This document shows positions 18,664 to 55,430 of a DNA stretch of 64,000 bases, one piece after another; the first letter of the stretch is position 1; each line of letters begins with the position of its first letter. Location: positions 171,448 to 235,447 of the forward strand of contig JAEPPZ010000005.1 of the NCBI GenBank assembly GCA_017640785.1, written 5' to 3'. The position numbers and the translations under genes were made by a program. This DNA is from Balneola sp. (GTDB taxonomy: Bacteria; Bacteroidota; Rhodothermia; Balneolales; Balneolaceae). The notes beneath the pieces were generated by a model. The model ran no database searches. It was not told the DNA's origin and saw nothing but the letters and a program-made list of their open reading frames with translations.

Positions 18664-18954
18664 CTACCCTCTTAAAGTAGGATACCAATCGATCAATTCA
18701 GGATTCGATTTCTTAATTAATTCCCATTTCCAATCTTTTCTCCAAGCTTTAAGCTGCTTCTCACGGGCGATTGCATCAGATATTGAATCAAATTCTTCTA
18801 CATATAAAAGAATAGTGAGTTTATATTTCGAAGTAAATTTTGACCCTTCTCCCTGCTTGTGATTCCAAACTCTTTGGTTCAGATTTGAAGTGACTCCGAT
18901 ATAAAGGGTTGTTCTTTGAATATTGCTTAGAATGTAAATATAACCTTTGCCCAT
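18664..18954 (-). CDS. GIY-YIG (URI-type) nuclease-domain protein
   Basis: This 96-residue single-domain protein of the YhbQ/UPF0213-like GIY-YIG group has GYIYILSN (GIY strand), TLYIGVTSNLNQRVWNHK (YIG strand plus the conserved Arg and His), KYKLTILLYVEEF and AIAREKQLKAWRKDWKWELI. The family is related to homing endonuclease and UvrC nuclease domains, but free-standing members have no settled role. The gene lies opposite to its neighbours and directly between two copies of the family 1 palindrome, so it is probably part of a repeat-associated mobile unit. Confidence 0.9.
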   Translation of the reverse strand: MGKGYIYILSNIQRTTLYIGVTSNLNQRVWNHKQGEGSKFTSKYKLTILLYVEEFDSISDAIAREKQLKAWRKDWKWELIKKSNPELIDWYPTLRG

Positions 18955-33723: not shown

Positions 33724-35067
33724 ATGGCTAACCATAATACTCGATTCTTTTTCGACGAACAAAGCCAGGAAAACGCAAAGATCAAAGTGGTCGGCGTAGG
33801 CGGCGGCGGCGGAAACGCAATCAACAATATGATAAATATGGGCCTCGACAGTGTGGAATATATCGCACTTAACACCGATGCCCAAGCATTGAAAAACAGC
33901 CAGGCTGATGTAAAAATTCAGGTTGGAACCTCACTTACTAACGGTTTAGGAGCAGGAGCTCGCCCGGAAGTTGGTAGAGAAGCGGTTGAAGAAAACCGAC
34001 ACGAAATTGAAGAAGCCATCGAAACTGCGGATATGATATTCGTGACTGCAGGAATGGGTGGCGGTACCGGAACGGGAGGCGCACCTGTGGTTGCAGGAAT
34101 GGCCAAACGTAAAGGAATTCTTACAGTAGGAATTATTACCACTCCATTCGATTGCGAGGGTAAGATCCGTAAGAAATTTGCACTGGAAGGAATCACAGAA
34201 CTCAAAAAGAACTGTGACACCGTTATCGTTATTCCAAACGAACGACTTCTGGACATCGCAGACGAAAACACCACATTGATGGATGCTTTCGCTCTGGCAA
34301 ATGAAGTTTTATATAACGCAACGCGCGGTATCAGCGACTTGATTCTAATGCCCGGTCTGATCAATCTTGATTTTGCGGATGTTAGAACTACAATGACCGA
34401 CGGTGGCGCAGCGATCATGGGATCAGCTACAGCTGAAGGTCCTGACAGAGCCGAAATTGCTGCCCGTTCTGCTATTAACTCTCCTTTATTGGATGGAGTT
34501 AGTATTCGCGGAGCTCGTAGCGTTCTTGTTAACATCAGCGCCGGTTCGGCACTTGGTATGCGTGAAACCACTACTGCTACAAGTATTGTTCAGCAGGAAG
34601 CCGGTGACAATGCAGAGATCATCTTAGGTACTGTTCTTGACGAAACATTTACCGATGAGATCAGAGTTACCGTAATCGCTACCGGTTTTGACTTAGCAGA
34701 AGACAGAACTACAGCGAAAGTAGCACCAAATGCTTCTGCAGGTTTAAATAAAGCAGCGGAAAATGCTTTGAATAATCAAGAAATAAAGCCTCAGGGAGTT
34801 CCAAGCAGAATTGCCCGCACTCCTAGTGATTATTACAAAGGAGAAGGGAATCTGAAAAAGTTGGATACACCTTCTTACCTGCGTCGTGATCTTTCTGTTC
34901 GACAAAAAGAACAGGAAAATGATGAGGAAGAAGAAAGTTACCGCGCTGAAGAACCAAAGCAGGAAACTAGAAGCAGAGATAATATCGCTCCGTTCCAAAG
35001 CAGAACCGAGCGTATTCAAAAAGACGATTCTGATCAGCCCGCATTCTTGCGCAAGATCATGGATTGA
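33724..35067 (+). CDS. ftsZ: Cell-division tubulin homologue FtsZ
   Basis: This GTPase forms the Z ring. It has GVGGGGGNAINNMI, LNTDAQAL, GMGGGTGTGGAPVVAG (tubulin signature), the NLDFADVRT loop and the C-terminal interaction peptide DQPAFLRKIMD. AAGGAG at 33713-33718 is one of the few strong SD sequences here, fitting high expression. It is the last dcw gene. Confidence 0.98.
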   Translation: MANHNTRFFFDEQSQENAKIKVVGVGGGGGNAINNMINMGLDSVEYIALNTDAQALKNSQADVKIQVGTSLTNGLGAGARPEVGREAVEENRHEIEEAIETADMIFVTAGMGGGTGTGGAPVVAGMAKRKGILTVGIITTPFDCEGKIRKKFALEGITELKKNCDTVIVIPNERLLDIADENTTLMDAFALANEVLYNATRGISDLILMPGLINLDFADVRTTMTDGGAAIMGSATAEGPDRAEIAARSAINSPLLDGVSIRGARSVLVNISAGSALGMRETTTATSIVQQEAGDNAEIILGTVLDETFTDEIRVTVIATGFDLAEDRTTAKVAPNASAGLNKAAENALNNQEIKPQGVPSRIARTPSDYYKGEGNLKKLDTPSYLRRDLSVRQKEQENDEEEESYRAEEPKQETRSRDNIAPFQSRTERIQKDDSDQPAFLRKIMD

Positions 35068-35361: not shown

Positions 35362-35816
35362 TGTCATATCGAGATGAGTGAAGGCGTAGCCTGATGACCG
35401 AGAAATCTAAAGAACTACTAATTTACATCAACTATCTTTAGATGTCTCACATACGTTCGACATGACAAACTCGGCTCTGTCATTTCGAGATGAATGAAGG
35501 CGTAGCCTGATGACCGAGAAATCTAAAGAACTACTAATTTACATCGACTATCTTTAGATGTCTCACATACGTTCGACATGTCAGAGTCGATTTTGTCATT
35601 TCGAGATGAACGAAGGCGTAGCCTGAATGACCGAGAAATCTAAAGAACTACTAATTTACATCAACTATCTTTAGATGTATCACATCCGTTCGACATGACA
35701 GAGCCGAGTTTGTCATTTCGAGATAAGTGAAGGCGTAGCCTGAACGACCGAGAAATCTAAAGAACTTCTAAATTGCATCGAATATCTTTAGATTTCTCCC
35801 TCTGGTCGAAATGACA
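35362..35816. repeat. Array of four ~106-bp REPIN-like elements (family 2), left of the GIY-YIG gene
   Basis: Copies lie at 35362-35467, 35478-35583, 35594-35700 and 35711-35816. Each has outer arms TGTCATTTCGA / TCGACATGACA and inner arms GAGAAATCTAAAGA / TCTTTAGATGTCTC, so it folds into one long hairpin. Successive copies are separated by exactly 10 bp. The spacer is AACTCGGCTC between copies 1 and 2 and its exact reverse complement GAGCCGAGTT between copies 3 and 4. The stretch 35220-35361 before the array shows only repeat-like fragments. Confidence 0.9.
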
Positions 35817-35851
35817 AAAACGTTGTTTACTAAGCCAAACAATTATCAACT

Positions 35852-36193
35852 GTGTTATACTATGTCTACATAACAACCAATTCTAGCAAAACTACTTTGT
35901 ATGTTGGTATAACAAATGATATTCCATCCAGAATATTGGAACATGGATTGAACGCCGGAAACCCCGAAACTTTTGCTGGAAAATATCATTGCTTTAATCT
36001 TCTTTATTACGAAGAATTCAAATATGTAAATGATGCTATCGCAAGAGAAAAAGAAATCAAAAAATGGCGTCGAAACAAGAAAGAGCAATTAATTAATTCG
36101 GTAAATCCTGAATGGAGGTTTCTTAATAAGGAACTGGGACTATACCCTTTTGGTGATTATGCTGATGAAAGGAATATCAAAAACAGAAGATAG
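35852..36193 (+). CDS. GIY-YIG nuclease-domain protein inside the repeat array
   Basis: It has a GTG start at 35852 and 113 residues. The nuclease domain has YYVYITTNSS (GIY strand), TLYVGITNDIPSRILEH (YIG strand, Arg, His), LLYYEEF and AIAREKEIKKWRRNKKEQLI, followed by a longer tail than the protein at 18664. The gene starts 35 bp after repeat copy 4 and ends 10 bp before copy 5. This is the same relation to palindromes as the first GIY-YIG gene, but with a different repeat family. Confidence 0.88.
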   Translation: MLYYVYITTNSSKTTLYVGITNDIPSRILEHGLNAGNPETFAGKYHCFNLLYYEEFKYVNDAIAREKEIKKWRRNKKEQLINSVNPEWRFLNKELGLYPFGDYADERNIKNRR

Positions 36194-36203
36194 AAAACCA
36201 CCT

Positions 36204-36520
36204 TGTCAGTTCGATTGTATCTGAAAAGTCTAGGATTTTTAGATATATAAAAGCAATCTTTAGATGTCTCACATCCGTTCGACATGACAGAGCCGAGTTT
36301 GTCATTTCGAGATGAATGAAGGCGTAGCCTGATGACCGAGAAATCTAAAGAACTTCTAAATTGCATCGAATATCTTTAGATGTCTCACATTCGTTCGACA
36401 TGACAGAGATAGTTTTGTCATTTCGAGATGAGTGAGACAAAGTCGAACGACCGAGAAATCTAAAGAGCTACTAATTTACATCGACGATGTCTAGATTTCT
36501 CACATCCGTTCGAAATGACA
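36204..36520. repeat. Family 2 repeat array, right of the GIY-YIG gene (three copies)
   Basis: Copy 5 (36204-36289) has a degenerate left half. Copies 6 (36300-36405) and 7 (36416-36520) are complete. Spacers are again 10 bp: GAGCCGAGTT and GAGATAGTTT. The region on to 36686 contains a GACCCTGAAGGGTC palindrome at 36541-36554 and words such as CCAATAACTAATCC shared with the paa-operon hairpins; no gene is seen. Confidence 0.88.
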
Positions 36521-38591: not shown

Positions 38592-38960
38592 TCATTCCGG
38601 ACTTACCTATGCCGAAGCTCTGCGAAGGCAGGCTTGATCCGGAATCTGTGTAAGCTTAGAAATGCAATCCCTACAGATCCTGAATCAAGTTCAGGATGAC
38701 AAGGTTTAATAATTATCCCCTAATTAAGTCATCCTGAGGATACTTCCGAAGGATCTGCACAAACTCATACATGTTCAGATTAACCAAATTTGCAGATTCT
38801 TCGCTTTCGCTCTGAATGACGAGAGAGCTGTCATCCCGAAGTGGAAATGCTTAGTTGAAACTTCAATTGCTAACACGAGCCTGCCGACTGAGAAATCTAA
38901 AGATTGCCTTTAATACTGATTTTTAGATTTCTCTCCCGAATTGTCGGGATCGAAATGACA
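38592..38960. repeat. Mosaic of four palindromic elements
   Basis: From left: CATTCCGGA...TCCGGAATCTG (about 38592-38648); a single family 1 half ACAGATCCTGAA/TTCAGGATGAC (38673-38700); GTCATCCTGAGGATA...GCTCTGAATGAC (38729-38820); and a family 2-like hairpin TGTCATCCCGA, GAGAAATCTAAAGA, TTTAGATTTCTC, TCGAAATGACA (38829-38960). The 588-bp gap between the M61 start and the next gene holds little else. It behaves as a landing zone for several repeat families. Confidence 0.8.
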
Positions 38961-43432: not shown

Positions 43433-43450
43433 GATAATTAAACAAAGAAT

Positions 43451-43537
43451 TGTCATTTCGAAGGAGCTTGTCGACAGAGAAATCTAAAGAGCTATTTAAA
43501 AGCAATCTTTAGATATCTCGCTTTGCTCGATATGACA
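43451..43537. repeat. Family 2 REPIN-like element between paaA and paaB
   Basis: TGTCATTTCGAAGG and GAGAAATCTAAAGAG on the left pair with ATCTTTAGATATCTC and CTCGATATGACA on the right. This is the element arrayed at 35362-36520, here as one shortened copy (87 bp) ending 12 bp before the paaB start. Confidence 0.85.
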
Positions 43538-43549
43538 AAATCCAAATTA

Positions 43550-54976: not shown

Positions 54977-55430
54977 TCAGAATTTCAGGAGTTCAGAATT
55001 GATCTTTTTTGTAAGGAATTGCTTTGAATTGGTCTTATTAGATAACTAATAAATAATTTTTATCTATGAAACCAGCACAAACATTTAAAGACCTTTTAGT
55101 TTGGCAGAAAGCGCATAAATTTGTACTTGAAAGCTATGCTTATTCAAAGAGCTTCCCAAAAGAAGAAATTTATGGTCTTACTTCGCAGTATAGAAGAGCC
55201 TCTGTATCAATAGCCGCAAATATCGCTGAAGGATTCAAGAAAAGAGGACAAAAAGATAAAGCAAGATTCATGAATATCGCACAAGGATCATTGGAAGAAT
55301 GTAGATATTACCTTATACTCGCACAAGATTTAGGATATGGATCATCTCAAAACTTGAACGATCTCCTTGAGGAAGTGAGTAAAATGCTTTCAAGTTATGG
55401 AAGATCAATTCTGAACTCCTGAAATTCTGA
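54977..55430. mobile_element. IVS-like cassette 4: perfect 28-bp inverted repeats around a four-helix-bundle gene
   Basis: Bases 54977-55004 (start TCAGAATTTCAGGAG) are the exact reverse complement of 55403-55430 (end GAACTCCTGAAATTCTGA), 28 of 28. The left arm starts 14 bp after the paaZ stop. The last codons and stop of the enclosed gene are inside the right arm. Arm words recur in the hairpin at 48751. Confidence 0.85.
55066..55422 (+). CDS. Four-helix-bundle protein, 23S rRNA IVS type (4)
   Basis: The 118-residue protein has FKDLLVWQKAHKFVLESYAY, YGLTSQYRRASVSIAANIAEG (family signature), FMNIAQGSLEECRYYLILAQDLGYG and a final helix LLEEVSKMLSSYGRSILNS. The last five residues and stop are coded by the right arm of the flanking inverted repeat. 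Confidence 0.92.
   Translation: MKPAQTFKDLLVWQKAHKFVLESYAYSKSFPKEEIYGLTSQYRRASVSIAANIAEGFKKRGQKDKARFMNIAQGSLEECRYYLILAQDLGYGSSQNLNDLLEEVSKMLSSYGRSILNS

Follow-up and report, generated by a model that had tools for sequence, protein, structure and literature searches.

A family of small GIY-YIG nucleases linked to CGTC-tagged REP repeats in many bacterial phyla

We describe here a family of GIY-YIG nucleases of about 95-115 residues whose natural partners would be CGTC-tagged REP hairpins. The family probably acts on these repeats, either in the manner of RAYTs and REPINs or like a homing nuclease for which the REPs are the site, and would do so with an unrelated nuclease fold. CGTC-tagged REPs carry a CGTC or TGTC tag and a stem starting with AT, and are mostly arranged as head-to-head dimers (Di Nocera et al. 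2013, PMC3733652). They occur in Proteobacteria, Bacteroidetes, Chlorobi, Spirochaetes and Thermotogae, include dRS3 of Neisseria as well as RPE-4 and RPE-6 of Rickettsia, and are described as not associated with transposase genes and as repeats that seem to "lack a dedicated transposase" (PMC3733652).

The palindrome array downstream of ftsZ and its nuclease

The window, i.e., the whole stretch of 64,000 nucleotides that was analysed, belongs to contig 14 of a 3.39-Mb Balneola genome (G000) that is 99.7% complete. Downstream of ftsZ (33724-35067, +), a conserved neighbour outside the element that anchors the orthologous site in eight genomes, seven TGTC...GACA units surround a GIY-YIG gene of 113 codons (35852-36193, +; GTG start, TAG stop). 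On the forward strand, four units lie to the left of the intact gene (35362-35467, 35478-35583, 35594-35700 and 35711-35816; 106, 106, 107 and 106 bp) and three to its right (36204-36289, 36300-36405 and 36416-36520; 86, 106 and 105 bp), as the first-pass annotation had described. Its gaps of 35 bp (left) and 10 bp (right) between gene and array are likewise correct, and so are the spacers of exactly 10 bp in all five adjacent pairs. In order, these read AACTCGGCTC, GAGTCGATTT, GAGCCGAGTT, GAGCCGAGTT and GAGATAGTTT; the first is the reverse complement of the third, and palindrome and spacer repeat together with a tandem period of 116 bp. The unit length of about 106 bp given earlier applies to six units (105-107 bp), but not to the first one on the right, a degenerate copy of a different subtype that is better preserved in the genomes G026 and G038. 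Similarly, the term palindrome is borne out by strong outer arms (TGTCATTTCGA/TCGAAATGACA) and inner arms (GAGAAATCTAAAG/CTTTAGATTTCTC, also given as GAGAAATCT/AGATTTCTC), but the symmetry is imperfect, with a self-reverse-complement identity of 56-67%.

The end pattern TGTCATTTCGA-N60-90-TCGAMATGACA occurs 21 times in the 3.39-Mb genome (both strands) and the reversed control pattern not once; hence, the array is not a product of chance. Folded as single-stranded DNA, the better units reach z-scores of -3.4 and -6.0, the latter for the fourth unit, which folds best, while one unit reaches only -1.8. Two further palindromes of this type lie at about 38880-38960 and 43450-43540, with no GIY-YIG gene directly adjoining.

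The units, which are head-to-head pairs of REP half-sites, fit the description of CGTC-tagged REPs. The tag with its AT stem start reads TGTCAT in six of the seven units (TGTCAG in the fifth) and GTCAT in the REPs at other genes, and both the head-to-head dimers and, in the Balneola and alphaproteobacterial REPs, a stem of 8 bp with a loop of 5 nt and a CTT or CCA tail are found. The window half-sites deviate from the class (stem of 8-9 bp, loop of 4-5 nt, short unpaired CCA tail) in that their stems are longer and imperfect and contain small variable hairpins, e.g., GGCGTAGCC or GACAAAGTC; furthermore, the tail of the Balneola REPs is usually CTT instead of CCA. The array is best explained as a REP-gene-REP unit whose flanking dimers were amplified by tandem duplication as 116-bp repeats. 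The nuclease is not needed for this step, and the tandem repeat could come from ordinary recombination.

The identification of the gene product as a GIY-YIG protein stands (Pfam PF01541, E=2.3e-15). It has the signature of these nucleases (Tyr, Tyr-x-Gly, Arg, Glu, Asn), and its catalytic residues Y6, Y17, G19, R27, E66 and N85 are kept in 99-100% of about 80 relatives. The dN/dS of the family lies mostly at 0.05-0.2 and is higher in a few comparisons of very close copies. Judged by these residues and ratios, the nuclease is intact and under purifying selection. NCBIfam has no family for the protein, and the only sequence matches in the PDB are 1zg2 and 1ywl. The predicted fold (pLDDT 88) matches the UPF0213 protein BH0048 (Z 7.3), Slx1 (Z up to 7.1), I-TevI (5.9) and UvrC (5.4); Z values below 8 indicate the fold of the model, not its function.

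Association of the nuclease family with CGTC-tagged REPs

The genome carries 13 PF01541 genes. Six of them, in addition to the window gene, lie between two inverted REP hairpins with the GTC tags pointing outward, e.g., GGTCATCCCGAACTCGTTTCGGGATCTT...gene...AAGATCCCGAAATAAATTCGGGATGACC; these are single hairpins, whereas the window gene sits between whole dimers. Two UvrC-like genes, one YhbQ-like gene, one beside the RNase P RNA gene and one beside a tRNA-Gly gene were considered for the same group and set aside, as their flanks lack paired REPs. The 3' end of the gene at the RNase P RNA (L002, 1447-1707, -) shares about 30 bp with the beginning of the RNase P RNA match, which is 500 nt long compared to a model of 367 positions; the gene at the tRNA (L005, 1492-1764) lies directly downstream of tRNA-Gly(gcc).

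Another member of the linked GIY-YIG family within the window (18664-18954, -) has CGTC-type repeats on both sides and a TTTGTAAGGAAT leader. The leader TTTGTAAGGAAT-N-GTCTTA precedes a gene of the 23S rRNA-intervening-sequence type (PF05635, 55066-55422, +; region 55008-55422) and recurs in the genome at seven GIY-YIG genes and at six Y1 loci. It is a putative promoter or regulatory motif common to three unrelated small mobile-type gene families.

Within Balneola, distinct protein subfamilies pair with distinct REP types. REP pairs are also dispersed in the genome, mostly as head-to-head dimers; gene-free dimers have the same subterminal motifs as those with a gene, and one gene-free copy is a gene unit with an internal deletion. 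Among 59 distinct REPs that were selected by tag and loop only, the variable positions of the stem stay paired: positions 5 and 21 (C-G, G-C or T-A) pair in 95% of them, compared to 43.5% with shuffled arms. This retention of pairing points to a recognition of the REP as a hairpin.

With a profile of seven proteins (A2), relatives were gathered at 80 loci in other genomes. These loci were picked by similarity to Balneola proteins, and the following fractions therefore describe this family, not all GIY-YIG genes. Under a strict definition, hairpins occur on both flanks at 32 of the 80 loci, compared to 0, 0, 1 and 0 in shifted controls. When A or G is allowed at the stem start, a GTC-hairpin lies upstream in 48, downstream in 45 and on both sides in 38 of 74 loci (shifted-position controls: both flanks in 0-1 of 68-75), while about a quarter of these 74 relatives have a detectable GTC-hairpin on neither side. 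The hairpins around linked genes face outward, such that the REPs flank the gene in inverted orientation. When upstream flanks are compared with reverse-complemented downstream flanks, the one from the same locus gives a far better match than those from other loci or from shifted positions, with a score of at least 20 at 33 of 75 loci, compared to 0 of 285 shifted controls.

Hairpin-bearing loci belong to Balneolota, Bacteroidota, Ignavibacteriota, Pseudomonadota, Campylobacterota, Elusimicrobiota, records labelled Bacillota and two candidate phyla. A plasmid collection added Neisseria, Aeromonas and the cyanobacterium Planktothrix, the last of which was scored by eye because its stems are below the detector threshold. 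As far as the sequences go, linkage to REPs is thus general for this family in many phyla. The arrangement recurs in species from the 2013 list of CGTC repeats, namely S. meliloti, A. lipoferum 4B and the dRS3 array of Neisseria, with the same repeats as listed there. In the N. gonorrhoeae array the GIY-YIG reading frame (L284, 1501-1773) is unannotated in the record.

Protein and repeat also vary together. Repeats of the GTCATCTCGAG/TCGAAATGAC type are found once more on the flanks of a relative of the window gene from another genus, and below 70% protein identity the similarities of protein and REP covary with a Spearman coefficient of 0.27, which was reached in none of 1000 free permutations, one of 1000 within phylum and two of 1000 within class, phylogeny inside the class remaining in the comparison. 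Among 198 genomes of the phylum, a family member is found in 34 of 38 with a AACTTGTT-type REP and in 81 of 160 without it (Fisher p=6e-6, not corrected for phylogeny). A close relative of the gene is hence absent from only four repeat-positive genomes; one of these, G192, carries 13 copies of the REP without a close GIY-YIG match. Genes of the family lie far nearer to the repeats than either the control positions or the Y1 genes. The first-pass annotation had proposed that GIY-YIG proteins spread or maintain the palindromes. Since both closeness and co-occurrence came out in favour, a functional link between gene and repeat has good support; a direct role of the protein in spreading or maintaining the palindromes is what we infer from this link.

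Turnover at orthologous sites

At orthologous sites, gene-filled and gene-free states alternate. The ftsZ site has the gene in four of the eight genomes (G000, G038, G026 and G061), with differing numbers of palindromes, and lacks it in G159 (one palindrome at the same junction), G096 (two), G065 (one) and G171 (none). It does not qualify as a clean empty site, and because the gene-free genomes retain 0-2 palindromes, loss by recombination is as likely as gain. The array of G038 (L164, about 1400-2150) holds another small open reading frame between two palindromes. At another shared site, G000 and G026 carry two different GIY-YIG units. The sites in Shinella and in Rhizobium CIAT894, too, were rejected as clean empty sites, their flanks being too rearranged.

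The best-dated insertion is found in G159, where a gene-bearing element with the outer ends TGTAGATGT...ACATCTACA interrupts a palindrome that is continuous in G000, G096 and G026, with a 5-bp duplication of the bases following the GTC tag. An interpretation of this event as direct transposition by the nuclease was withdrawn: the gene copy moved within a larger inverted-repeat element with TGTAGATG ends that also exists without the gene, and the duplication is seen for this outer element only, not for the REP-gene-REP unit. Since there are also copies of these elements without the gene, a different enzyme with CGTC REPs as its target may be what moves them. In G000, seven of 15 ends of this kind directly follow GTCATnnn. 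Elements with the ends TGTAGATGTYANNTAATT (L268-L282 in G000 and L189-L191 in G159) insert into CGTC REPs immediately after GTC and a further 5 bp, and 5 bp appear to be duplicated in the process. Their cargo is REP-GIY-REP in some cases and a long noncoding mosaic in others.

Possible roles of the nuclease

We propose that the mobile unit would consist of the gene between two head-to-head REPs or REP dimers with the GTC tags outward, and that gene-free REP dimers elsewhere in the genome would be its non-autonomous partners. The nuclease would recognise the REP hairpin or cruciform and cut at or near the GTC tag, whereupon both the dimers and the REP-gene-REP unit would be copied into new places, as with RAYTs and REPINs; alternatively, repair of the cut would copy the unit into other REPs, as in homing. 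It is a serious possibility, though short of an even chance, that CGTC REPs as a whole class, from Balneola to Neisseria and the Rhizobiales, are spread by a hydrolytic, hairpin-recognising GIY-YIG nuclease, which would be a second, unrelated solution to what RAYTs and REPINs do, and a new transposition mechanism.

The strongest competing explanation, which we consider rather unlikely, is a parasite of the homing type: the REPs would have come first and been spread by something else, the nuclease would cut them, and its gene would be copied into the cut by repair, such that the REPs are the target and not the product. The GIY-YIG domain is a classic one of homing nucleases, and the structural matches include I-TevI. 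Two sites speak for this explanation as well. In Balneola, a gene-free element has a symmetric palindrome where sister copies have REP-GIY-REP, and at the fnrL site of Sphingobium plasmids REP-gene-REP alternates with the single symmetric palindrome GTCACCCCGGGTCAAGCCCGGGGTGAC, which is of the same kind; the Sphingobium tree separates the gene-filled from the palindrome-only group but not the direction, i.e., insertion into a palindrome or excision leaving one. However, the hairpins on both sides of the gene are complete and not split half-sites, and the subterminal motifs shared by gene-free dimers and gene-bearing units are expected if the former are derivatives. Furthermore, a dimer-gene-dimer block lies between sufB and sufC of Azospirillum lipoferum, and the three relatives read have neither this block nor any REP there (other listed Azospirillum matches also cover just 81-82% of the query). 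At this site, the unit therefore seems to have come together with its REPs; a clear target-site duplication is not seen.

A host function, with the nuclease resolving cruciforms or processing REP RNA or DNA hairpins and the flanking REPs regulating its gene, is very unlikely. The predicted fold does resemble Slx1, a nuclease of branched DNA and junctions, hairpins fold well as single strands, and the gene kept at the ftsZ site has a dN/dS of 0.04-0.10 among closely related pairs, but the patchy presence, several copies per genome, varied sites and REP types and internal deletions argue for a mobile unit rather than a housekeeping gene.

Least probable of all is a spread of the palindromes in trans by Y1/RAYT-type transposases with the GIY-YIG gene as a passenger, even though GTAG REPs are known to be mobilised by RAYTs (PMC3116915, PMC3733652) and the earlier statement that no RAYT is present, which is true for the window and its whole contig (no Y1 match), fails for the genome, with 15 Y1_Tnp matches at E<=1, ten of them above the Pfam cut-off. 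None of the 13 Y1 loci of the genome with usable flanks has a GTC-hairpin within 250 bp, and their flanks hold other, unrelated palindromes. In the phylum sample, GTC-hairpins lie upstream, downstream and on both sides of 1, 1 and 0 of 32 Y1 genes, compared to 12, 16 and 10 of 27 GIY-YIG genes (Fisher p below 3e-4 in each comparison), and the 2013 survey found no CGTC repeats beside Y1 genes (PMC3733652). A Y1/RAYT enzyme as the partner of these REPs is thus not supported.

To return to the nuclease as the partner, the arrangement of a small enzyme gene between inverted REPs, with gene-free REP pairs dispersed in the genome, is shared with RAYT (TnpA-REP), REPIN and REPtron systems. The enzyme, however, is a GIY-YIG protein (PF01541) and not an HUH/Y1 transposase, the tag is GTC and not GTAG, and whereas REPIN pairs depend on a RAYT, the Y1 genes here are without these REPs. 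The family has the fold and size of small UPF0213/YhbQ-type proteins, but the YhbQ-like and UvrC-like genes of the genome lack flanking REP pairs. With homing endonucleases such as I-TevI it shares the catalytic fold and a selfish-element context, yet it is free-standing, has neither an intron nor an extra DNA-binding domain, and is linked to repetitive hairpins instead of one conserved gene site.

Repeats and nuclease fold are each already known, and a search of the open-access literature found no prior report of their pairing (subscription journals and bioRxiv were outside the search); there is a substantial chance that it is also mechanistically new. The survey of CGTC REPs found no dedicated enzyme. 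To their apparent lack of a dedicated transposase (PMC3733652), the linkage with a single nuclease family across many phyla offers an answer that is concrete and testable and that covers repeats of well-studied bacteria such as the Neisseria dRS3 and the rhizobial REPs. Of the candidates for the partner that CGTC repeats have long lacked, and that would move or copy them, the GIY-YIG family is the best. If this is true, a nuclease fold known from homing and repair would fill the role that HUH enzymes have for GTAG REPs.
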